Shown here piece after piece: positions 3,062 through 57,337 of a stretch of DNA of 64,000 nucleotides; the stretch's first letter is position 1; each line of letters starts with the position of its first letter. The notes below the pieces were generated by a model. That model ran no database searches and had not been told where the DNA came from. It worked only from the letters and a program-made list of their open reading frames with translations. The stretch is from Anaerobiospirillum succiniciproducens DSM 6400 (GTDB lineage: Bacteria > Pseudomonadota > Gammaproteobacteria > Enterobacterales > Succinivibrionaceae): NCBI RefSeq assembly GCF_000482845.1, contig NZ_AXWV01000019.1, positions 1 through 64,000 on the forward strand, read 5' to 3'. Made by a program: the position numbers and the translations under genes.

Positions 3062-5656
3062 CTAGGCGTTCTTAGTGCCTTTAGTGCCATTGTCACCTTT
3101 TTCTTCGCTGATATTACGCACTAAGTCTTCGATATCTGCACCGGCCTCAAATAAAGCGATTAAAGCCTTAACATGCAGTAAGGCGCACTTCTCGGCAGTT
3201 ACGATACCAGCAAGCCATGGACGGTTACCAGGAATCTCACGCCACTTGATCTGAGAGCTAGTTAAAGTACGGTTACCCTCTAAGACGTCACAACCAATAG
3301 ACCATGGAGACATGCCTAAGGAGATTAAGTAAGGGTACTTCTCTGGGCTTTGCTTAATATCTGGCTTAACCCAACGTAAGGTATCAACGATATTAATCTT
3401 ATCGCCACGAACATCAGTAATACCCATGAACCATGAAGGCTTACCAAAGAGGTTGGTAATCTTATCGCACTCGAAGATACCACCAAGGTCGATAAGAGGC
3501 ACAGCAAAGCGTACGCCCTGAACTAAGAAGAACAGTACCTGGAATTGCTCGCCAAGATCAACGTTCTTCCAATCCTTGTTAATAGCGTGCAGCTTATCAG
3601 CCATACGCTGTTCAGCAGTCTGAGGAGGAGCCTTGGTAACCTGCTCAATCTTCTGAACTTGCTCAACCTTGACCTCAGGCTCTGCAACCTTAGTCTCAAC
3701 CTTGACCTCAGGCTCAGAAACCTTAGTCTCAACCTTAACCTCAGGCTCTGCAACCTTGGTCTCAACCTTAACCTCAGGCTTTGCAACCTTGGTCTCAACC
3801 TTAACCTCAGGCTCTGCAACCTTAGTCTCAGTAGCAGTCTGAGGAACAATGGTATTAAGCAGACGCTGCAGGCTTTCGCTATCACCTGGATCGGCAAACT
3901 CAAGCTCTTTAGCAGTTTCAGTCTTAGTTGCGGTCTGCAGCTGTGGCTCATAGCTTACAGCTGAAGACACTGATGAAGAACTCTCTTCGTCAGCAGAACT
4001 TTGTGCAGCAGCGATCATGGCTGCATCGGCTGCGCTTTCAGCAGCGGCAGCATCAGCCTTGTCCTTATCAGACTGCTCAGCTGCGGCAATCATGGCAGCA
4101 TCGGCAGCACTCTCGGCTGCAGCAGCATCTGCCTTGTCCTTATCAGCCTGCTCGGCTGCGGCGATCATGGCAGCATCGGCAGCGCTCTCGGCTGCAGCAG
4201 CATCGGCCTTGTCCTTATCAGACTGCTCAGCTGCAGCGATCATGGCTGCATCGGCTGCGCTTTCAGCAGCGGCAGCATCTGCCTTGTCCTTATCAGACTG
4301 CTCAGCTGCAGCGATCATGGCTGCATCGGCTGCGCTCTCGGCTGCTGCAGCATCTGCCTTGTCCTTATCAGACTGCTCAGCTGCAGCGATCATGGCAGCA
4401 TCAGCAGCGCTCTCGGCTGCAGCAGCATCTGCCTTGTCCTTATCAGACTGCTCAGCTGCGGCGATCATGGCTGCATCGGCTGCGCTTTCAGCAGCGGCAG
4501 CATCTGCCTTGTCCTTTTCAGATTGCTCGGCTGCAGCGATCATGGCAGCATCAGCAGCGCTCTCGGCATCAACAGTATCTGCCTTGTCCTTTTCAGATTG
4601 CTCGGCTGCGGCGATCATGGCTGCATCAGCAGCGCTCTCAGCAGCGACAGCATCTGCCTTGTCCTTATCAGCCTGCTCGGCTGCAGAAATCATGGCTGCA
4701 TCAGCTGCGCTCTCAGCATCAACAGGGATCTCATTGGCGCTTTCAGATGCGCTATCCTTGCCACTTTCAGATGCGCTTTGCTCAGCATCTTCCTGAGCGG
4801 AGCTTTGTGCTACGCTTGGCTGTGCAATGCTATCAGATGATGTAGTTGATGACTCTGAGCTCTGTGCTTCCTTATCATCAGCAACATGCTCTGCATCTTC
4901 AACACTAGTACCAGAGACCACCTTCTCGATAACGATCGCGTCATCGGTAGTATGGGTATGAATAACCTCAGTGCTATCAGGTGTGGTGGTAACAACTGTT
5001 TGAGTCTGAACATCTGCTGTTGAAGAAGAGGTCGTTACGCTGCTGGTAACAGCCTTTGGCTGAATGCCGATTTGCACAAACTCGCTAGTGCTTGGCTCTT
5101 CTTCATCAATAGAGATGAATGGCTCTTTAGAGATCGCATCATAGGCACGATCGACTGATGAACCTGTAGCAACTTCTTGCTCTTGAGCTTGGGTTGCAGA
5201 TACAGTCTCATCAGCAGCTGAAGAAATAACGATACCCTCAGTTGAAGCCTTGGCACTTTCTAAGTTAGAAGGCTCTGTCTTAAGAGGTGCAGACTGCTCA
5301 TTAAGCCCCTTAGAGACAACACTCTGAGTAACAACTGCAGCGTTAGTAGCGCTGACTGTTAATGAGTCGCTGTCTGCAATAGTCTTAGAGGATACTTCAC
5401 CTTGAGCACTCACAATAGTGCTTGAAGCGCCAGTTGATGCTAAAGCTGCATGGTTAGCGTCAATAGCGGCATTGGCACTCGTAAGTACACTTTCATTGGC
5501 TTCTTTTGAGTAGGAGGATTCGTCGGCAGGTGCAGCCTGCATGTCCCCTTGTTCTTGGAGCTCACCGTCAAACTCCTCATCATCTACTTCAGCAAGCATT
5601 TGCTGGAAGTAGGCAATGAGAGTTTCCTCTTCACGGTCGTGATGACTTGGAGCCAT
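3062..5656 (-). CDS. parP: ParP-like polar array protein with CheW-like C-terminal domain and giant repeat linker
   Basis: In Vibrio, ParP sits between ParC and CheW, binds CheA and receptors through a C-terminal CheW-like domain, and keeps chemosensory arrays at the pole. This 864-residue product has the same position and a CheW-like domain at about residues 695-850 (VRFAVPLIDLGGIFE, WFMGITDVRGDKINIVDTL). The rest is low complexity: acidic, Ser/Thr/Ala-rich residues 1-310; ten 25-residue Ala-rich repeats (AESAADAAMIAAAEQSDKDK type) at about 312-550; five 11-residue VAEPEVKVETK repeats at about 609-665. The repeats give long spurious open frames on the plus strand. The start ATG has AAGGAG 8 bases upstream. 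The protein is far longer than known ParP proteins. Confidence 0.85.
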   Translation of the reverse strand: MAPSHHDREEETLIAYFQQMLAEVDDEEFDGELQEQGDMQAAPADESSYSKEANESVLTSANAAIDANHAALASTGASSTIVSAQGEVSSKTIADSDSLTVSATNAAVVTQSVVSKGLNEQSAPLKTEPSNLESAKASTEGIVISSAADETVSATQAQEQEVATGSSVDRAYDAISKEPFISIDEEEPSTSEFVQIGIQPKAVTSSVTTSSSTADVQTQTVVTTTPDSTEVIHTHTTDDAIVIEKVVSGTSVEDAEHVADDKEAQSSESSTTSSDSIAQPSVAQSSAQEDAEQSASESGKDSASESANEIPVDAESAADAAMISAAEQADKDKADAVAAESAADAAMIAAAEQSEKDKADTVDAESAADAAMIAAAEQSEKDKADAAAAESAADAAMIAAAEQSDKDKADAAAAESAADAAMIAAAEQSDKDKADAAAAESAADAAMIAAAEQSDKDKADAAAAESAADAAMIAAAEQSDKDKADAAAAESAADAAMIAAAEQADKDKADAAAAESAADAAMIAAAEQSDKDKADAAAAESAADAAMIAAAQSSADEESSSSVSSAVSYEPQLQTATKTETAKELEFADPGDSESLQRLLNTIVPQTATETKVAEPEVKVETKVAKPEVKVETKVAEPEVKVETKVSEPEVKVETKVAEPEVKVEQVQKIEQVTKAPPQTAEQRMADKLHAINKDWKNVDLGEQFQVLFFLVQGVRFAVPLIDLGGIFECDKITNLFGKPSWFMGITDVRGDKINIVDTLRWVKPDIKQSPEKYPYLISLGMSPWSIGCDVLEGNRTLTSSQIKWREIPGNRPWLAGIVTAEKCALLHVKALIALFEAGADIEDLVRNISEEKGDNGTKGTKNA
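3660..3830 (-). repeat. 33-bp in-frame tandem repeat in parP (about 5 copies)
   Basis: Encodes VAEPEVKVETK and close variants (VAKPEVKVETK, VSEPEVKVETK), joining the Ala-rich repeat tract to the CheW-like domain. The Lys/Glu/Val/Pro alternation suggests an extended charged spacer. Confidence 0.9.
4005..4720 (-). repeat. 75-bp in-frame tandem repeat in parP (10 copies)
   Basis: ATCATGG recurs at exactly 75-bp steps (4014, 4089, 4164 ... 4689). Each unit encodes 25 residues, AESAADAAMIAAAEQSDKDK plus ADAAA, with a few substitutions mostly at one end (VDAES, QSEK, MISAAE). The high identity between copies indicates recent expansion by unequal exchange or slippage. The Ala-rich, DKDK-punctuated unit is predicted to be helical. 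Confidence 0.95.
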
Positions 5657-17395: not shown

Positions 17396-19156
17396 GATCT
17401 TCTCCTTAACTGCAAAAAGTCTCAGGCAATGAAAATATGAAAAGAAAAATAAAGCCTGATTTGACTAGGTGGAACATACCACCAGGCCACTTAGTGTGAC
17501 ACTTCATCTGCTTAGAATGTAGCCTAAGCCACATACTACAGATCGTATGTATTTTGACAACCATTGCAAAAGGAGTGCTAGCTATCTTTGTATGTAAGAC
17601 TCATAGCAAAGCTAGATCTAATCATCACCCTTACATCTGATTGAAAGATTGCTGCATGTTCTTAAGAGTGCCTACATTGCAAGACGAAGTTGCCTTTGCT
17701 TGCACACTCATAAGAACTAGCTAATGTTTAACTAGCCTACATCAATCAAGTGGCGGATTATATACACCGCACTCAAAATACAGTGAACTACTAAGCCCAA
17801 AGTAGTGACTTAGCTTAGTCACAAAGCTAAACGCATTGTAACAGGAATATTCACCTTCCCTTTTACGTAACAAGCTAAAAGCTTATTACAAGAAATCTGT
17901 CTTACCTTTAAAGCTTAATTAAGCTTATACGTAAGTTAGTTTATCAAACAGCTTACTTGCATAGTAGCTTTTGATATTGGCACTAATCATTTTGCCTTAA
18001 GCTATAGCTCAGATTAAACGCTTTGATATCGGAGCATAGATTATAGCCTTTTTTGAATGCAAAAGGACTCATGCAAGCAATCGCCTGTGAGTCAAATATG
18101 CCTCAGTGATTATACGCGTGCCTGATAAGAACTATGTAGTTGCTCGTCACAAAGTACAAACAACTTCCATGCTTTCTAGCACATACAAACAATATTAACG
18201 CCAAATGGCATTGCCTGCAAATAACCAAGCAGCTGTTTTGCCCATAGATAGCACATTTTTGATAGTTTCTTTTACACAATCAAAAACTTAGATGCCATGG
18301 ACAAACTTAAATTATTGAACATCGATTGGCAAATATATGTGATTGTACGCTGTAGCTAGTTCCATGCCCAAGTAAAACTTTACACTGCAAACTTAACAAT
18401 GCGGTTGTATGACGAGCTATACGGATACTGAGCAAAAAACTTGATTATTGCACTGACATCGCGCACAGATGACAAGCATGTATTTTCTCATCCTGAACGT
18501 TACTTGCTGCTCTTTAATAAAGTCGTAAGAATGACGATCAGATTATTAATGCTAGCAAACGTTGTAATTTGAGTGTGTTATACCACAACCAATGAACAAT
18601 AACTCATATCTATGCCACACAAAGCGCATAAGGTTAAAGCAAGATCAAAGCATTGTGTGCAATATCATAGTTATTTTATAGCTTATAACTACGCTATATT
18701 GCACTTAGTGCATATAACTTTATCCACAAAATTATCTTTTGCAGCATGTGCACAGATATGTAGAGATCATTTAAAAAGATCACGGCTTCAAAAATACTAC
18801 ACTAACTCCTTAAGATCACCACATGATAGATATTAGTTGTATCTACCATTTCTTAATATAAGCATGTTCATGCAAAGCTTACAAAGCGATTATAGTCAGC
18901 AATCAAGCCTAAATTAGAAGCACAAAGATCACTCCTTATTTAGCCTATCTGACATCAATATCATAGATCAAAGATCAAAGATCATAAGATCTTAGCTCGC
19001 CATAGACCTTGTTATTTGTATCTTGCAATACGCACTTACTATTGTTGTAGCAAAGCTGCTGCTTGTTAGAAGCTGTAGCCTCTACTGATTAAGCTGCAGT
19101 TGCTACTTAACTAGGCGTAGAGCAACTACAAATAATCAGATAAGTTTGGAGCTATC
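17396..19156. other. 1.8 kb spacer between fliA and cheY
   Basis: No supported gene. Short open frames (for example 18612-18836 on plus) lack a ribosome site and family resemblance. The cheY promoter is expected here; no site is clear enough to list. Confidence 0.5.
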
Positions 19157-21820
19157 CTAGCTATCCTTGTTGCTACGCTCGCGCTCCATAGCAAGGAACT
19201 CCTCTAATGAGAGCACAATCGGCTGAGCACGAGGACGGCCACGTTTAGGTGATGTACCATCGTTTCTAGTATCACTTGATGCTTTTGCACTTACCTTGCT
19301 TGTAGATGATCTTCTAGTACGTGTGGTTCTATTTGTCTGTCGCTTCTTTAAGCCAACCAAATCAAGATCGCCATTTGTAGCATCTTCGCTCTCATAGCTT
19401 GGGCTGCTATACAAATCATCAGCGCTACTTGAATTTAAGGTCTGAGCGTACATAGCCTCATCAGCAATCTCGTTAAGATACTCTTGCGCTGGTCCTTGTT
19501 GATAGTTTGGAGCGCAAGCTGCATGAGAAGCTGAGTCAGGCTCTGTCAGATTTGAAACTGCAACAAATTTAGCCACTGCCTTCTTTTGCATGGCAATGAG
19601 CTGATTTTCTTTACGTTGCATTTCACTGGCGCGTTGATGCTTGCGAGCCTCAACTACTTCAATAGTCTTAAAGATAAGCTCAGCAAATTCCTTTTGCGCC
19701 ATGAACTTCTGTCGCTTAGCCTTAGCTAGCTGCACAATCGTAGCAGTACGCATGATAATATCGTTGAACTCTGCCTGAGCCTGCTCTTTAGAGAGCGTTA
19801 CATCACGCTTAGGAGCCTCAACTTGTGGTAGATCAGCAGAGAAGTCGCTAACAAAAGCTGGCTCAGTCTGATCGCACATAGCATCAATTTCTTCAAGTAA
19901 GTGTTCCGGTATGTCAGATGGAATACTACTAAAATTCGGCTTTTTAGCTACAGCAGCTTGATCCTTGCTATCTTGATCCTTGCTATCTTGATTATTGCTA
20001 TCTTGATCATTTGCCTTGAAGGCTTTATTCGCGCTTTCATCTAGAAGGTTAAGATCAATTAACTCCTGAATATTCTCAGACTGCTGCTTTTCAAAAACCA
20101 TCTGACCAAATGCAGCTTTAATCGGATCATACTGCGGTGAGGACGGATCAAGCTCAGGAGCAAGTAAGCGATTACGCTTATCAGCATTAGCTGCACTTGA
20201 ATCGCCTGATGATTTTTTACCGTCAGCAGCCTTAGTTGTCTGCGCCTCAATATCCGCAGCATAATTTTCAGCAAAAGGATTTGGCATATCAGAAAGACCA
20301 ACATCAGGCAGAGAAATGTCTGACATGCTGATCTTTACTTCGCGCTTAGACTTAACCTTAGAACGTGATGGTACTGTAATTGACGGAAGAGCAATGCCGT
20401 TAATTGATTCGCTATCACTCTTAGATGCACTGCTTGAATCTTTGTCCTCAGAGCTATTAGCCTCTACTGCACCAACGAGATCATCTTGAGAGATGTCAAA
20501 CTCTTCATCAAGCTGCTCCTTTTGAGCTAACTTAGACTGCTTGAGAGCATGCCTCTTACTATCGGCAATCATAGTAGGAGTATCTTCAAGCTCAGGCTTA
20601 TCATTGGCAAAAGGTCTATTAGCATCACGTTTCTTTAATCGCGCAGTTGGCGCAATAAGAGCTTCTTGACGCTTACGTTTTACCTGGGCAATAGTATAGG
20701 CAAGACGCTCTTGTTCTATGCGTCTTTCTTCTTCACGCTCAGCTACAATTCTTCTACCGTGCTCGGTCTTAACATCAATTTCGCCGTCCTCATCAAAGAG
20801 CAAGGAAGGCTTCTTTGCTGTCTTTTTAGGAATTGGACGAGCACCTTCAGACATAATGCGATCGATCTTACGCATCTTGTCAGAATCAGCTTCATCCTTA
20901 GCATCAACATTGAGTTGATTGTCTGAGCCATAGGCAAATGCAAAGTCATCTGCATAAAGATCTTCAATACTAGATCTACGGAATTTTTTAGGTTTTTCTT
21001 CGGCAACTTTGAAGCCGTCGATTACCATTACCTCATCGCTAGGAGCTTGTCCCTCACGGTTCTTGCCCCATAAGTAGAGATCTTTACGAATATGCTTAAA
21101 GCCATTAGCCATTAATTGACAGATACGAGAGCTAGACACGCCAAGGATCGCAGATATTTCCTTAACGTTCATATGCTTTTCGTAGTATAGGCCAATGACA
21201 TAACGCTCTTTATCAGGAAGATTCTTAAGAGCCTTAACTAAATCCTGATTGAACTGTTCAGCAATGATGCCATCGTAGAGGGTGTCATCATGGAATGGAA
21301 TGTTCTCACTTTGAGATAGTTCGTAAAGAAAGTCTTCAGTACAGCCTGTATCTTCCACAGCCATAACTTGAGACTGATTGGTGTCCACCATAATAAGATG
21401 CAGATCGTTAATATCTACGCCTACATCTTTAGCAATTTCATAATCAGATGGTTCACGACCAAGAATCTGACTTAAACGCTCACGAGCCTCGGTAATAATA
21501 CGAGCATTAACATGAACAGTACGTGGGGCCCAATCACTACGTCGCAAGCCATCAATGATACTGCCACGAATACGCAATGCAGCATAGCTTTTAAATGACG
21601 CGCCTTTGCCGTCAACAAAGTTATTCACAGCATCGATTAGACCAAGCATGCCATTTTGAATAAGATCATTGAGATCTATATTCGCAGGCAGACGTCCTTT
21701 GATGAATAAGGCAATGCGCTTAACCAGAGGAGCGTACTCAAGCACCATTTGTTGGCGCTCGGACATACTCTTGTTGGAGTAAGCCTTAATTGCTGAATCA
21801 TTTGGATCTCTTGGTGCCAT
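19157..21820 (-). CDS. fliA: Flagellar sigma-28 factor FliA with a 630-residue C-terminal extension
   Basis: FliA directs RNA polymerase to late flagellar and chemotaxis promoters. Residues 1-250 are a complete sigma-28 protein: region 2 (YAPLVKRIALFIKGRLPA, DLIQNGMLGLIDAV, ASFKSYAALRIRGSIIDGLR), region 3 (ARERLSQILGREPSDYEIA) and region 4 (LPDKERYVIGLYYEKHMNVKEI, SSSRICQL). Normal FliA ends there at about 240 residues. Here the frame continues for some 630 more residues of charged, Ser/Asp/Lys-rich sequence. This includes a short DQDSK-type repeat near residue 610-625, a helical stretch around 690-745, and near the end (about 855-865) an AT-hook-like KRGRPR in a basic RTTRTRRSS context. No stop or frameshift separates the parts. 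Confidence 0.93.
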   Translation of the reverse strand: MAPRDPNDSAIKAYSNKSMSERQQMVLEYAPLVKRIALFIKGRLPANIDLNDLIQNGMLGLIDAVNNFVDGKGASFKSYAALRIRGSIIDGLRRSDWAPRTVHVNARIITEARERLSQILGREPSDYEIAKDVGVDINDLHLIMVDTNQSQVMAVEDTGCTEDFLYELSQSENIPFHDDTLYDGIIAEQFNQDLVKALKNLPDKERYVIGLYYEKHMNVKEISAILGVSSSRICQLMANGFKHIRKDLYLWGKNREGQAPSDEVMVIDGFKVAEEKPKKFRRSSIEDLYADDFAFAYGSDNQLNVDAKDEADSDKMRKIDRIMSEGARPIPKKTAKKPSLLFDEDGEIDVKTEHGRRIVAEREEERRIEQERLAYTIAQVKRKRQEALIAPTARLKKRDANRPFANDKPELEDTPTMIADSKRHALKQSKLAQKEQLDEEFDISQDDLVGAVEANSSEDKDSSSASKSDSESINGIALPSITVPSRSKVKSKREVKISMSDISLPDVGLSDMPNPFAENYAADIEAQTTKAADGKKSSGDSSAANADKRNRLLAPELDPSSPQYDPIKAAFGQMVFEKQQSENIQELIDLNLLDESANKAFKANDQDSNNQDSKDQDSKDQAAVAKKPNFSSIPSDIPEHLLEEIDAMCDQTEPAFVSDFSADLPQVEAPKRDVTLSKEQAQAEFNDIIMRTATIVQLAKAKRQKFMAQKEFAELIFKTIEVVEARKHQRASEMQRKENQLIAMQKKAVAKFVAVSNLTEPDSASHAACAPNYQQGPAQEYLNEIADEAMYAQTLNSSSADDLYSSPSYESEDATNGDLDLVGLKKRQTNRTTRTRRSSTSKVSAKASSDTRNDGTSPKRGRPRAQPIVLSLEEFLAMERERSNKDS

Positions 21821-22584
21821 GATATGCTCTGCTTCCCAATTCGTTCACTGTATCTGCTCTATAGCCACTACATCATCATAAATAAGAAATAAGACCATCC
21901 TAGATTGACCTTGCCTAAGCTTATAGCATTGGCATCATCCTTAAAGTGGTTCTGCCTATTCATAAATTAGTAGCGTGTTAGTAGCTTTGCAGATAGTTTA
22001 AGACTGTAGCAATAGACACACTAAGCCTTAACTTTGCCTAGAGTCAAGTATGTAATCTTGCTTAATCGATACAGTCTATTGCAGTCTAATGACAGCTTCA
22101 ATTTTAAGTACTTAATTAGTGCAGCAACCATTGCTCTGTATGAGAACAACAAAAACTAATGGGCGTACACACTAAACACACACCTAAACAAAGACATTTG
22201 AGTCTGAAACTTATTAATAATGCCTACTCTTCATACAACAAACAAAGATTGCTGATGTGTGTAGTCAAGCTATCTTGTTCGATTCTATTAGAATTTACGC
22301 GCAACGTCCATGATATAAGCAAGTTTGCGAGAACTTAAACCAATATTTGACTTAACTTTCTCAGTTCTGTACCGAATAAAAAATCACCTAAACTCCTTAG
22401 ATAAGCCAAATATCAGCACTAGACTACTTAGAAAGGATTTTATTTTGCTTTTGCATGATTTTGCAAATTAAACGAGCGATAGTGCCTTTGAGCGAAAATC
22501 ACCTTCACTTCTGTAAGTAAATGTATTTCGCTAGGCATAAAAAAACCCGCATAAAGCGGGCTTTTTAGAGGATTACTAGAGTTT
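21821..22584. other. Spacer between flhG and fliA
   Basis: About 760 bp without a supported gene; holds the flhG terminator near its left end. Confidence 0.55.
22539..22566 (-). terminator. Terminator of flhG (works in both directions)
   Basis: AAAAAAACCCGC-ATAAA-GCGGGCTTTTT, 19 bp after the flhG stop. Confidence 0.93.
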
Positions 22585-23580: not shown

Positions 23581-24893
23581 ACAAACGACACCCTAAATAG
23601 TAATCTCTTTGTCAAACAAACGAATCTTATACACTTGAACAACACACAGAGTGTAAAAGTTTCGTAAAACAAAACACTTTAGGTAACAGATAGCTTTTGA
23701 GCTACCTTAGATGCTAGCTAATGTAATTAGCTAGACACTACCACGATGTTACAACTAAGGAGCACATATTCAATAGTATGTGTACCATAGTGCTTTGCTA
23801 ACGTATACCTACGAAACAAAGGCTTTATGCATCAAGCTTTCAACTAGAGATACAAACAAGAACTGAAACGCATTGTGCTCTTGTTATTAACTAAAAAGAT
23901 CTCATTGAGACCAACTCTAGATGCAAGCTTACTTGCTCTAAGAAAATATGTATCTATATATTACATTAAATCGTGATGCGGACTAATTTATTAAGAGCAA
24001 TGTTAGCAAAAGATGTTGTAACTAGAAAATATTCTTAATAATGATTATTGTCATGCAATCTAGATCACAATCAATTGATCTAATGTAACTAATATGACAC
24101 TCATCTGACTTAGACAAGTTACTGCGCCTATGCAATGCAAAAATCAGCCCTACTTTGCAAAAACGCACTAAAAAGTTATTAAGCCGTACTTACAAATGGC
24201 TAGTGTATCGTATTTAGCTTGCAAATTATACTAAAGTTCATACACATCTCAACTTACATAATTGACTAAGTATATCAACAAAATATCTAATGCCTGCTCT
24301 AAGAGCAGTTCTTATGGGCTGCCATGTATAAAAGATTGACACTAGCATTCAGGTAAACACTATACTCGATCCCCATTAGCTGAACCTTAGCACCACCATT
24401 TTCTATCACATAATCTTGTTGGTTTTGGCAACATATATGGCATCAATAACAAGGCAGTATTGGCCTAAGCGGCATACATGTTCTCACTGCATTGCACAAT
24501 CACAAACCAAAAGACCTCTTAGCAGTCTAAATGCATGGCTACAATTGCTCATTATCGATTAGCCAAAGCACTGAGTTTAAGTAGTCATTTAGCAATTAAG
24601 ACAATAGTAAGCAGGCTCTTCAATGAAGTATAGATTGTCCTTAGATTAGAGTGGCTAGATTAGACAGATGTAGATCAGATCGGTTTTAGCGCGACTTAAT
24701 AGTCACCCGGTACGGGATTAAATCGGTTTTAGCGCGAGTTATTAGGACTGGAGCAGATCGAATCTGTTTGGGCAGGATTAGAATGATTGTGCGGCCTTGA
24801 AATGACAACGCCTCAAAGAGCTATGAGATCGCAGCACTTAAGATGCATGGCGATGCTATTGAGCTTTTTGAGGCGCGATAAAAGTATTGTCTC
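23581..24893. other. 1.3 kb spacer between flhF and flhG
   Basis: No supported gene. Contains a 16-bp exact direct repeat ATCGGTTTTAGCGCGA (24680-24695 and 24723-24738, 43 bp apart) and the flhF distal hairpin. Confidence 0.55.
24809..24875 (-). terminator. Possible terminator or large hairpin downstream of flhF
   Basis: CGCCTCAAAGAGCT pairs with AGCTTTTTGAGGCG with one mismatch around a 39-base loop that itself holds partial pairing. It begins 19 bp after the flhF stop. The following T-run on the minus strand is weak. Confidence 0.45.
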
Positions 24894-30443: not shown

Positions 30444-32792
30444 CTATGGCAGATATGAGCCATTAAAGCGGATATATGGACGGCGGCTGCGACCAAATAA
30501 GCAAGTAGCGGTTACTGAAAAGCTCTTAATGCCCTCATAGCATAAATCACCAATGGCCTTGTGAATGGACTGCAAATTAACTGCAGTGGTTATAACCATT
30601 GGCAATCCTTGTGAGCTACGACGACGTAATAACTCGTTAAAGATCTTCTGAGCAAAAGGATCTAAGGCACTGTTGTCAGAGCACAGACCATCTAGAATCA
30701 ATAAGTCCGTATTGCAAAAAGCATTGAAGCGGCGATTTCGCTCATTTTTGTCTTCAAAGCTTTCATTATTTGAATAAAACCAAGTTTTCTTGATGTCATC
30801 AAAGGTGGTGAGCATGCTCAAAGGCACATCAGGATGGCGGCCAATTTCTGTCTTGCTATGGGTACGCAGCTGCATAAACTTGTTACCAATAGCATGACAA
30901 AGACAGGTCTTACCTGTACCCATATCACCAAAGACTAAGAGCATTTGTGGGGTAACCTGAGGATAAATATTGCTAATAAAGCGCAGTGATAAGGTAAAGG
31001 CATCATTGTTGAACTTATCACGATTTAAAGTCGCAAAGTTATACTTAGAATCGACATTACCAGAGCGCTTCATATCCTTAACGAAACGACGGTAGTAGTC
31101 TTCTTTGCGCTTTCTTACCTCAGCTGCTACCTCAATGGTTTCACGACGACGCATAAGCTCAGCATCACCAGGTCTAACTTCAATATCATCGATATTGATA
31201 CCAGTGTGCTGTTCAATCTTGCGCAGCAGCATCTCAATTGGAGAGCGTGGACGGGATGAGCTATGAGTTGTAGCATCCTCATCTTGGGTAACTGTCTGTC
31301 TTAAATCCTGCACAAAGCCACTATCTTGTGCCGGCACTGCACTTTCACTAGTGTCCTTGCTAGTAGCTTCTGAAGTGCCAAAGTCATCATACTCATCATC
31401 TGGGTAATCAGGAGTATCAGGATCAGCAAGCAACATCTGGAAGCGAATCTTAAGCTCCATCTCCAAATGCTCAAAGCGTGCACGCTGTGCTTGCAGCCTT
31501 TCAATCAGTGCAGCCTGTTGAGGACTCATACCAGGACGAACGGATGGGATTCGATAGAGCTTAGGAACGAGATCATCATAAGGCGTAGTGGTTTGCTCCA
31601 CAGCAAGACGTGCACCTTCATAGGTTCTTGAAAACGCCATAGCCTTGGCTGCAGGATCATTAACATTTGCCATCTGCTGCGTATTGCCATTAAACACTAT
31701 CTTGGAGCTCTCTCTTTCAAGCGGGACACTCTTAGTGTTTTGGCCATTTGACTGCATGGCAATGGTACGTAACTCATCAGAATAACCTGCAGCATTCGCA
31801 TCAGCTTTAGCAGTTGCTGCAGCATATGCCATTGTCTGAGTATAAGACTGACTCATGGCCTCATCCGAAGCTACATTAGCTGCTCTAGCAGATCCTGCAC
31901 TAGAGCTTGCATTAGAGCCACCAGCCACAACACTGCCCATATCCGGACCACCCGTATTCTTAGATGCCTGTTCAAAGCCGCCAGCATAAGCAGCCACAGG
32001 TGTCATAGGAATATTGGCTCTAGCTTCATAAGACTCTGGAGCTAACTTAAGCTTCTCTTGCGGAGTACCGATTGGCTCATCAATGTTTGAGCCTTTGTTA
32101 TCAGCGCCCGCCCAACCATTAGCACCACCAGCGCCAGTTACCTGGCCTTGACCAAACTGACCGCCCTGTCCTTGACCAAATTGTCCTGGCTGCATCTGGC
32201 CTGGACCAAACTGACCGCCCTGTCCTTGGCCAAATTGACCAGGCTGCATCTGGCCTTGACCAAACTGACCAGGCTGCATCTGTCCTTGGCCAAATTGTCC
32301 TGGCTGCATCTGACCTTGACCAAACTGACCGCCCTGTCCTTGACCAGGCTGCAACTGTCCTTGAGCAAATTGTCCTGGCTGCATCTGACCTTGACCTTGG
32401 CCATACTGATTTTGCTGAGGCTGAGTGAACTGCCCTGGTGATCTTTGAGCAAACTGACCTTGCTGACCGTACTGATTACCTTTGGCTTGCTGATACTGTG
32501 CTTGCTGCATCGCTGCATTGGCATTGGCATTTAGATTTGCAGCGGTACTGGCGTTTGGAGACATTGCACCTTGTGCATAAGAAAAATCATCCTGTACGCC
32601 TGGAGCCATGATTAAGGATGGGCCAAGCGGGCCAGTAGATATTGGAGCGGCATTAGGCATTGCAGATGGTATTGCTTGCTGATGCGGCGCTTGGCCTACA
32701 TTGGCATTATCGATCTGACTAGTGCGCTCAACAATCTGTGGGGTAGCATTGGTGTCAACAAAAGATCCTGATGGTTTGTTGTTATAAGACAT
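30444..32792 (-). CDS. DnaC-like AAA+ ATPase with long Gln/Gly-rich N-terminal region
   Basis: The C-terminal 180 residues resemble DnaC/IstB-type helicase-loader ATPases: Walker A GDMGTGKTCLCHAIGNKF at about 622-640, a Walker B-like TDLLILDGL, and an IFNELLRRRSSQGLPMVITT segment typical of the family. The first 600 of 782 residues are unlike any DnaC. They include a tract of near-repeats GQFGQGQMQP (about 125-215), long Ala/Asn/Gln-rich stretches, and a helical charged section (about 410-600). Whether it loads replicative helicase is unknown; the N-terminal DnaB-binding region of DnaC is not recognisable. It lies 365 bp downstream of the J-like gene and upstream of flhA, on the same strand as both. 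Confidence 0.7.
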   Translation of the reverse strand: MSYNNKPSGSFVDTNATPQIVERTSQIDNANVGQAPHQQAIPSAMPNAAPISTGPLGPSLIMAPGVQDDFSYAQGAMSPNASTAANLNANANAAMQQAQYQQAKGNQYGQQGQFAQRSPGQFTQPQQNQYGQGQGQMQPGQFAQGQLQPGQGQGGQFGQGQMQPGQFGQGQMQPGQFGQGQMQPGQFGQGQGGQFGPGQMQPGQFGQGQGGQFGQGQVTGAGGANGWAGADNKGSNIDEPIGTPQEKLKLAPESYEARANIPMTPVAAYAGGFEQASKNTGGPDMGSVVAGGSNASSSAGSARAANVASDEAMSQSYTQTMAYAAATAKADANAAGYSDELRTIAMQSNGQNTKSVPLERESSKIVFNGNTQQMANVNDPAAKAMAFSRTYEGARLAVEQTTTPYDDLVPKLYRIPSVRPGMSPQQAALIERLQAQRARFEHLEMELKIRFQMLLADPDTPDYPDDEYDDFGTSEATSKDTSESAVPAQDSGFVQDLRQTVTQDEDATTHSSSRPRSPIEMLLRKIEQHTGINIDDIEVRPGDAELMRRRETIEVAAEVRKRKEDYYRRFVKDMKRSGNVDSKYNFATLNRDKFNNDAFTLSLRFISNIYPQVTPQMLLVFGDMGTGKTCLCHAIGNKFMQLRTHSKTEIGRHPDVPLSMLTTFDDIKKTWFYSNNESFEDKNERNRRFNAFCNTDLLILDGLCSDNSALDPFAQKIFNELLRRRSSQGLPMVITTAVNLQSIHKAIGDLCYEGIKSFSVTATCLFGRSRRPYIRFNGSYLP
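32135..32425 (-). repeat. Gln/Gly-rich in-frame repeats in the DnaC-like gene
   Basis: Imperfect tandem units coding GQFGQGQMQP and GQFGQGQG, about nine in all, built from CTGGCTGCATCTG and CTTGACCAAA blocks. Copy number is likely to vary between strains. Confidence 0.85.
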
Positions 32793-55245: not shown

Positions 55246-57186
55246 CTATTTAGAATCTTTCTTATCAGAAGCATCATCAGATACATCTGAATCGGCAGCC
55301 ATGATATCACGGCCGGCCTCAGTTTCACTCAGCTCATCGAAACGTTCTTTGCCCTCAGCATAAGCCTTAGCAAAAATCTTCGCAAACTCTTCGCCTTTAG
55401 GATCGGCTTTAGACGTTCTAGAGTCAGCATCAGCCATAGATGAGTGTGCATCACCATGAGCATGATCATTACTCTTTTGCTCATCCTCTGCATCATCATT
55501 GTGCCCATGATCGACCCAGGTTACGCCAGTAGAACCATCAGCTACAGGAACAGTTTCATCTTTGGCTGCGATCTTATCTTTAACGAGAGCCGACACTGAA
55601 TCGCTAGAGGTAACAGTATTGCCCTCATTAGATGCACTGTCTGCTGCAGGCTGCTCATCACAATCGAGCTTATCATCCTGTACAGCATCGGCTTGCGTGC
55701 CATCATCGCCAGCTTTAGCAGCATCGGCTTGCGCTGTATCGGCTTGCTCAGCTTGTGCTTGCCTAAGCTCGCTCACGTCAGCTTGCTCGGATGCATCGCC
55801 AACAGCGGCAGTAATTGCATCGGATAGCTTTTCAGCATCTGAGTGAGTGTTGGCTTTTGCATCAGTCATACATGAGTCACTGTGTGCTGAGCTGCCATTA
55901 ATCTCGCCATCGGCTGTAGAGCTTTGAGCACTAATAGCATTGTTATCTACTGCACTATTGGTGCTTGCATCGGATGCAGCGGCCTTTTCTGAAAAAACTA
56001 CTGATGTCTTTTCGACACTAGGTAGTTCTCCACTGCCCTGCTCGTCCATACCAATATGACGCATTGCATGCTTTAGACGTGAAGCTCTTTCATGTAAAAC
56101 ATCATCATCAGGCATCATGGTTAGATTGGAGGTGGCACGGGCTGCTACTTTACGAGCTGCCTGAGCTTTAATTTTTGCCTCGGTGATATCCTTGGATGCT
56201 AATTTTGTCTCGCTGCTCTTAAAAGTCTTTGTATAGAGCTCCTCATCTAAATAATCAGAGTCATCATCTTCATATGACTCGCTTATTTCCTTAGATGCTG
56301 CGGCTTTGGCTGCTTTAGCCTCTTTTTGTGAGTCATTATCTAGCTCTAAAATTAGATTGATGTTACTTGGAGTTACACCGAGTAACAGATGACGGTCACC
56401 AACGCGTACTTGCACAATACGCTCTTTTGGACCAAGTGCCATCTGAGTCTCAAGACGAATGGAGCTACCAGATCTTTGTACAAAGCGTGACTTCTTAATT
56501 AAGAAAGCTAGGATAAAGATAATGCCTAAAACAGCGATGGTAGAAAGTAACCACTGAATAATACCTGAGGTGGTATTTAAGCCACCTTCAGCTAATGAGC
56601 CAGATCTTTTTGGACGGTCGGCAGCAAAAGCATTGAACTTTTCAACAGCAGAAGCTTTATCCTGTGCCGATGGTTGTAATTCGTTACTTTGAGCTTCATC
56701 TGCAAGAGCTGCAGTGGCATGTTCAGCCATGATGGCATCATCAGCGGCAGCAGTTTCGTTAAACTCAAGGTCAACCACCTGCGGCTTTTGATCATTCTTA
56801 GTTTGGTCAACAGCTACTTTAACAGTATTTTGCTCAGCGCTATCAGCTACAGCTTTGTCATTGTCTGATGCTGCTTGTGCATTAGCTGTTGCAGCTGCCT
56901 CTGCTCTCTTAGCTGCAGCTGTTGCATGCTGTGCAGTTTGTGGTACCGTTTGCTGTGGTGCGGCTTGCTTTGCTGCAGCATTATCATTAGCGGCAACTTC
57001 AGTTGCAGCACTAGTGCCTTGTGCTAAGACTTGCGATGAGCTAAAGAGGGCAAAAGATGAGCAAGTAAGTGCAAAGAAAAAACAAGATGCCTTGGTAACT
57101 TGCTTGAAAGAAATGGGTTTTAAGATATACAGATCCTGATTTAAAAAGCCTCTGACGGCAGATGTATACGAATGTGCTGTACGCAT
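55246..57186 (-). CDS. fliO: FliO with very long N- and C-terminal extensions
   Basis: FliO assists assembly of the FliP/Q/R export gate. The usual FliO is 100-150 residues. This product is 646: signal-like hydrophobic stretch at about 30-50, an Ala/Gln-rich periplasmic region to about 205, the single membrane segment (IIQWLLSTIAVLGIIFILAF, about 209-230), and the FliO core (GSSIRLETQMALGPKERIV ... DRHLLLGVTPSNINLIL, to about 290). A 350-residue acidic Ala/Asp/Ser-rich cytoplasmic tail follows. AAAGGTGG lies 5-8 bases before the ATG at 57186, so that is the start. A terminator lies between it and fliN. Confidence 0.88.
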   Translation of the reverse strand: MRTAHSYTSAVRGFLNQDLYILKPISFKQVTKASCFFFALTCSSFALFSSSQVLAQGTSAATEVAANDNAAAKQAAPQQTVPQTAQHATAAAKRAEAAATANAQAASDNDKAVADSAEQNTVKVAVDQTKNDQKPQVVDLEFNETAAADDAIMAEHATAALADEAQSNELQPSAQDKASAVEKFNAFAADRPKRSGSLAEGGLNTTSGIIQWLLSTIAVLGIIFILAFLIKKSRFVQRSGSSIRLETQMALGPKERIVQVRVGDRHLLLGVTPSNINLILELDNDSQKEAKAAKAAASKEISESYEDDDSDYLDEELYTKTFKSSETKLASKDITEAKIKAQAARKVAARATSNLTMMPDDDVLHERASRLKHAMRHIGMDEQGSGELPSVEKTSVVFSEKAAASDASTNSAVDNNAISAQSSTADGEINGSSAHSDSCMTDAKANTHSDAEKLSDAITAAVGDASEQADVSELRQAQAEQADTAQADAAKAGDDGTQADAVQDDKLDCDEQPAADSASNEGNTVTSSDSVSALVKDKIAAKDETVPVADGSTGVTWVDHGHNDDAEDEQKSNDHAHGDAHSSMADADSRTSKADPKGEEFAKIFAKAYAEGKERFDELSETEAGRDIMAADSDVSDDASDKKDSK

Positions 57187-57337
57187 GGGCACCACCTTTC
57201 AGGATCAAATAGATTAAAAGCAATTGAAGTAAGACAATGCTTAGAGATGTTTAGCATTGCAAGCACTATATACCTAATGACAATAGCCTTTAAGTACTAG
57301 CGGGCACAAAAGTGCAATAGTTGGAGGCCTATCAAGC

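Follow-up and report, generated by a model that had tools for sequence, protein, structure and literature searches.

A genus-wide C-terminal tail on the flagellar sigma factor FliA of Anaerobiospirillum, with a conserved motif and, in some species, an AT-hook core

Promoter choice by sigma factors is set through a fixed set of domains. In Actinobacteria, WhiB7 is bound to region 4 of SigA and contributes an AT-hook that targets RNA polymerase to the AT-rich stretch immediately upstream of the -35 element (PMC3905903). In Myxococcus xanthus, CarD has an unfolded HMGA-like C-terminus with RGRP hooks, which is required for full promoter activation (PMC4374960). A CarD/HMGA-like tail was defined by an unfolded C-terminus in which an acidic segment precedes repeated RGRP hooks. 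Here, we describe the flagellar sigma factor FliA (sigma-28) found in a stretch of 64,000 nucleotides from Anaerobiospirillum succiniciproducens DSM 6400 (contig NZ_AXWV01000019.1, positions 1 to 64,000; hereafter the window). Like WhiB7, this FliA places an AT-hook core beside sigma region 4, and like CarD it is a protein of the transcription machinery with an RGRP-bearing C-terminal tail. Neither is homologous to FliA. WhiB7 is a separate Fe-S protein that acts in trans, whereas the window hook lies within the sigma factor, at the end of a candidate tether of 632 residues; CarD is not a sigma factor but binds the RNA polymerase beta subunit, and has four hooks.

The window fliA (19157-21820, minus strand) is a single ORF of 887 residues with an ATG start and no internal stops. 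The preliminary description of this DNA had proposed that FliA is complete within the first 250 residues and that the same uninterrupted frame continues to residue 887. Both statements held: a full FliA occupies residues ~10-251, with the family models ending by residue 249, and the frame is one ORF. Within the core (residues 1-251; 21068..21820, minus strand), the Pfam sigma-70 domains for regions 2 (residues 25-97), 3 (108-158) and 4 (197-246) each scored above cut-off, and the NCBIfam FliA model PRK06986 matched residues 10-249 with 233.5 bits (cut-off 201). FliA structures 9wsf, 6pmi and 1rp3 were consistent with this assignment. At otherwise invariant FliA core columns, the window core differs at three only, all conservatively (L-I, V-I, T-S). 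The 887-residue protein is the sole FliA in the 3.80-Mb genome, where the other match was RpoD. Its gene has a flagellar context, as the order flhF-flhG-fliA-cheY-cheZ-cheA is found in the window and kept in relatives. AT-rich intergenic gaps of 0.8-1.8 kb flank fliA in the flagellar cluster (17396-19156, 21821-22584 and 23581-24893). The window FliA thus has regions 2, 3 and 4, the gene order and a FlgM gene in the genome in common with known FliA proteins. These proteins, and 39 FliA that we sampled in other Succinivibrionaceae genera, stop just past region 4, while the window FliA runs 632 residues further.

The C-terminal tail (residues 256-887; 19160..21055, minus strand) has the properties of genuine coding sequence. 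The probability of 632 open codons arising by chance at this base composition is ~4e-18, and synonymous codon usage is gene-like in each third of the tail (z 5.9-6.7). Of the in-frame starts in the tail, only that at residue 878 has a Shine-Dalgarno-like sequence, so no second gene lies hidden there. For the closest species pair, dN/dS was 0.19 in the tail and 0.044 in the core, which shows purifying selection on the codons of the tail. The alternative that an assembly or frameshift error joined fliA to a second gene, which had been named as a possible refutation, or that the tail is untranslated, is extremely improbable. We found no point in its support, and long FliA frames in eight other genus genomes, the gene-like codon usage in all three parts of the tail and the tail dN/dS all argue against it, ruling out a joining or frameshift error. 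The same lines of evidence agree with the earlier reading of the tail as a continuation of the FliA frame, making one fused protein. A 15-bp tandem repeat of 3.5 copies, detected with TRF, lies inside the tail (19957..20008, minus strand) and is a sign of growth by slippage.

Long FliA frames of 442-568 residues were present in all eight other Anaerobiospirillum genomes where fliA was found, so the search for relatives that the preliminary description had suggested gave a positive answer. In one further genus genome, 90% complete and in 360 contigs, FliA was not matched, owing to either an assembly gap or a loss. The 39 FliA frames from other Succinivibrionaceae genera are all tail-less and measure 242-279 residues, except for one frame of 435 residues. 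We rejected this frame as a tailed FliA, because its extra length is upstream read-through and the tail is absent. FliA proteins in 75 records from named genomes outside the genus also end at or just past region 4. The view that FliA normally stops after this region therefore held across both sets. In a phylogenetic tree, tailed and tailless FliA are split by a single starred branch (99/98). Because the tail is genus-wide (nine of nine FliA) and absent from the FliA of other genera (0 of 39), it was probably gained in a single event, which is most simply placed at the base of the genus. The tailed FliA is real, and is unreported in the open-access papers that we searched, where we found no tailed FliA and no AT-hook sigma factor; the functions discussed below are proposals.

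The tail had been described as disordered, which was correct in part. It falls on the disordered side of a charge-hydropathy plot, and 347 of its 632 residues (~55%) have an AF2 pLDDT below 50. Helices were nevertheless predicted at four places (residues 353-394, 566-602, 678-758 and 872-886), from a shallow alignment. The helix at residues 353-394 (20639..20764, minus strand; pLDDT about 77-94 per block) follows the conserved motif described below. The long single helix at residues 678-758 (19547..19789, minus strand) reached a pLDDT of about 90-93, which with the shallow alignment is to be read as helix propensity. Both AF2 models had a low pTM (0.33 and 0.29) and gave no usable docking of the tail. 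Outside the conserved islands, most of the tail is no more alike between species than shuffled sequence. Sequence comparison and prediction together portray the tail as a linker that evolves quickly, is about half disordered and contains two conserved islands.

One island is the motif S[LS]LF[DN][DE]xxE[IV], which occurs once per tail in all nine genus FliA proteins, where 1e-8 to 4e-6 occurrences per tail are expected. It lies about 25-80 residues past region 4 and is often followed by xMRTxHGR. The window copy is at residues 339-348, within the conserved stretch SLLFDEDGEI...HGR (residues 339-358; 20747..20806, minus strand). There, AF2 predicted two short strand-like positions, resembling a hairpin, followed by the helix. 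A motif profile searched against ten genus genomes gave significant E-values for FliA alone, with no other convincing match, RpoH included. A relationship to the OspA sheet was rejected: the PDB match to its LFNEKGEL repeats had a summed E-value of 0.0002 and no single significant stretch. We regard the match as a chance one that supports at most a hairpin shape of the motif. Sliding-clamp binding sites are expected to have a leading Gln, which is missing here, and this identification was dropped. The preliminary description had focused on the AT-hook and missed this motif. The tail to which it drew attention is indeed genus-wide, but the universal element is the motif, as RGRP is found in just four of the nine tails.

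The other island is the C-terminal end. The AT-hook core KRGRPR (residues 859-864; 19229..19246, minus strand) is an RGRP core flanked by basic residues, and in shuffled tails RGRP and [KR]RGRP[RK] occur with probabilities of 0.003 and 0.00015, respectively. It does not quite end the tail as had been proposed, since a predicted helix (residues 872-886) comes after it. Core and helix are part of a block, RGRPxxxPxVxSxEEFxAM (19160..19273, minus strand), shared by the window species and two others (L003 and L004). The helix was predicted confidently in both modelled species (pLDDT about 91). A plain protein search matched window tail residues 843-882 in other species with an E-value of 5.8e-4 and 43% identity. 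An AT-hook core in a basic context, as first described, is thus kept in two further species together with its surroundings. The window tail has one hook, L003 two and L004 three; the L009 tail has RGRP without the C-terminal block, and the other five tails have no hook. Tails L005-L007 end in PRRRRS or PRRRSR, and L011 and L012 have neither RGRP nor an end of this type. The Pfam AT_hook model (PF02178, gathering cut-off 17.4 bits) gave no match on the window protein; for the FliA of one other genome (G001), it scored 19.1 in a genome search and 15.3 in hmmscan. The net charge of the last 60 residues is +4 to +8 in seven of the nine proteins and near zero in L011 and L012; for comparison, it is at most +2 in 27 of 29 other window proteins. 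Two changes are needed to place the hook block on the tree, where it clusters only weakly. As RGRP is absent from five of nine tails, the AT-hook need not be the ancestral function of the tail.

FliA is not the only lengthened protein of the genus. RpoH frames measure 607-911 residues in all genus genomes where they were found and 283-403 elsewhere, while RpoD shows no comparable lengthening. The RpoH proteins sampled from the genus (L171, on contig C66 of the window genome; L172-L177, L043 and L044) are extended at both ends: the N-terminal extension is long and mostly acidic, the C-terminal one basic, with a charge of +12 to +21 in the last 100 residues. In two species, the C-terminal extension contains the AT-hook/H1-like KKRRGRKK or KKRGRKK, and an RpoH from another genus of the family (L178) has the C-terminus GRKRGRPR. 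FliA and RpoH are thus both alternative sigma factors whose C-terminal extension is basic and AT-hook/H1-like; RpoH differs in its additional acidic N-terminal extension and in giving no match to the FliA motif. FliO measures 354-751 residues in the genus and 122-315 elsewhere; the window FliO (55246-57195; 649 residues) has a long acidic C-terminal extension. A CheW-like protein of 864 residues (3062-5656) is of low complexity in its N-terminal two thirds, with about ten 25-residue repeats (AESAADAAMIAAAEQSDKDKADAAA), and TRF detected a 75-bp repeat array in its gene. A DnaC-like ATPase (30444-32792) has a long Q/G/P-rich N-terminal region. Because FliO and the CheW-like protein are also lengthened, the data suggest that growth of disordered sequence is general in the genus. 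The C-termini of FliO, FliK, MotB and CheZ are negatively charged, and positive C-terminal charge distinguishes FliA and RpoH from the other extended proteins.

Identity between the window FliA core and those of its congeners is only 43-49%, and the window branch measures 2.25, compared with 0.05-0.47 for most congeners. Neighbouring proteins from these genomes share about 81-95% identity (FlhA 90-93%, CheY 86-91%, CheZ 86-95%, FlhG 83-89%). The FlgM of the window genome is likewise the most divergent of the genus, at 29-43% identity to the others. Synonymous sites in the core are saturated at these distances, and the pattern suggests a functional pair evolving rapidly together rather than decaying. 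FlgM is kept in nine of ten genus genomes; one genome with a tailed FliA (G001) had no FlgM match at E 0.01, unlike the nine others. The retention of FlgM rules out the tail as its replacement and leaves the earlier suggestion of altered FlgM control, in the sense of its loss, unsupported; FlgM control is probably kept.

Flagellin genes vary widely in number, with 100 Flagellin_N matches in the window genome (G000), 43 in G005, at least 150 in G006 and 3-18 in the other genus species. The three species with most flagellins are those with the hook block. Upstream of flagellin genes, of which 60 were sampled, canonical sigma-28 promoters (TAAAGTTT-N11-GCCGATAA) were no commoner than expected by chance, and a genome scan for this pattern was close to the control, with the FlgM gene present. 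Sigma-54-type sites (TGGCAC-N5-TTGCW) were found upstream of 14 of 20 flagellins in G006 and six of 16 in G000 (L239-L278). These sites, and the lack of canonical sigma-28 sites upstream of the sampled flagellins, weaken the proposal of a hook that helps sigma-28 to control the very large flagellin families.

We tentatively favour, short of calling it probable, a working FliA whose flexible tether bears a docking motif in all species and, at its end, a built-in anchor for the minor groove in some, by analogy an in-cis version of the WhiB7 or CarD role. The conserved motif would dock onto a partner, which may be RNA polymerase, the sigma core or a flagellar regulator, and the remainder of the tail would form the tether. 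The basic or AT-hook end, for which we propose binding from its sequence, may grip the AT-rich minor groove near promoters. The holoenzyme would thereby be held or selected there, a role that WhiB7 and CarD fulfil in trans and the tail would fulfil in cis. This model is supported by the restriction of the tail to the genus, its low dN/dS, the invariant motif, recovery of the C-terminal AT-hook block between divergent species and the basic ends of most FliA and of RpoH, with WhiB7 and CarD as precedents. The five tails without RGRP, the near-zero terminal charge of L011 and L012, the silence of PF02178 on the window protein, the lack of canonical sigma-28 promoters upstream of the sampled flagellins and the FliO and CheW-like extensions speak against it. 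Close to it in likelihood, and quite possible, is that slippage and weak constraint simply grow disordered tails. The tail would then be mostly passive, its RGRP minor or due to chance, and the 10-residue motif alone would be kept. This accounts well for the length and variability of the tail. It is favoured by the lengthened FliO, RpoH and repeat-containing CheW-like proteins and the 15-bp repeat in the tail itself, as well as by the mostly unalignable tail and the very fast window core. However, the tail dN/dS is well below 1, and passive growth does not explain a motif invariant in nine of nine tails or a C-terminal block kept between otherwise differing species. Moreover, the C-terminal charge on the sigma factors suits DNA binding, whereas that of FliO, FliK, MotB and CheZ is negative.

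The universality of the motif could also be read as that of a control element. SLLF[DN]E..EI would fold back on the sigma core or interact with either the export gate or a flagellar regulator, thereby tuning FliA release, FliA stability or FlgM hand-over, with DNA binding secondary. We consider this unlikely. In its favour, no other element of the tail is universal, and the motif is exclusive to FliA and close to region 4, the FlgM site. The window species also has an unusually divergent FliA together with an unusually divergent FlgM. Yet FlgM itself is present almost throughout, and no partner was found, the two AF2 models being unusable for docking.

Returning to the tether and anchor, a broader form would have both FliA and RpoH of the genus carry HMGA/H1-like DNA-binding tails, so that the sigma factor supplies its own upstream minor-groove anchor in addition to the docking motif. 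This form is somewhat doubtful. If it is true, an anchor and docking motif borne by the sigma factor would determine promoter choice by a different route, as the upstream minor-groove anchor is elsewhere supplied by separate proteins. A genus with two tailed alternative sigma factors would offer a natural test of a sigma-borne anchor on upstream DNA, and of how disordered tails of the transcription machinery affect regulon size or FlgM timing. The 100-copy flagellin family of the window genome makes this question concrete.
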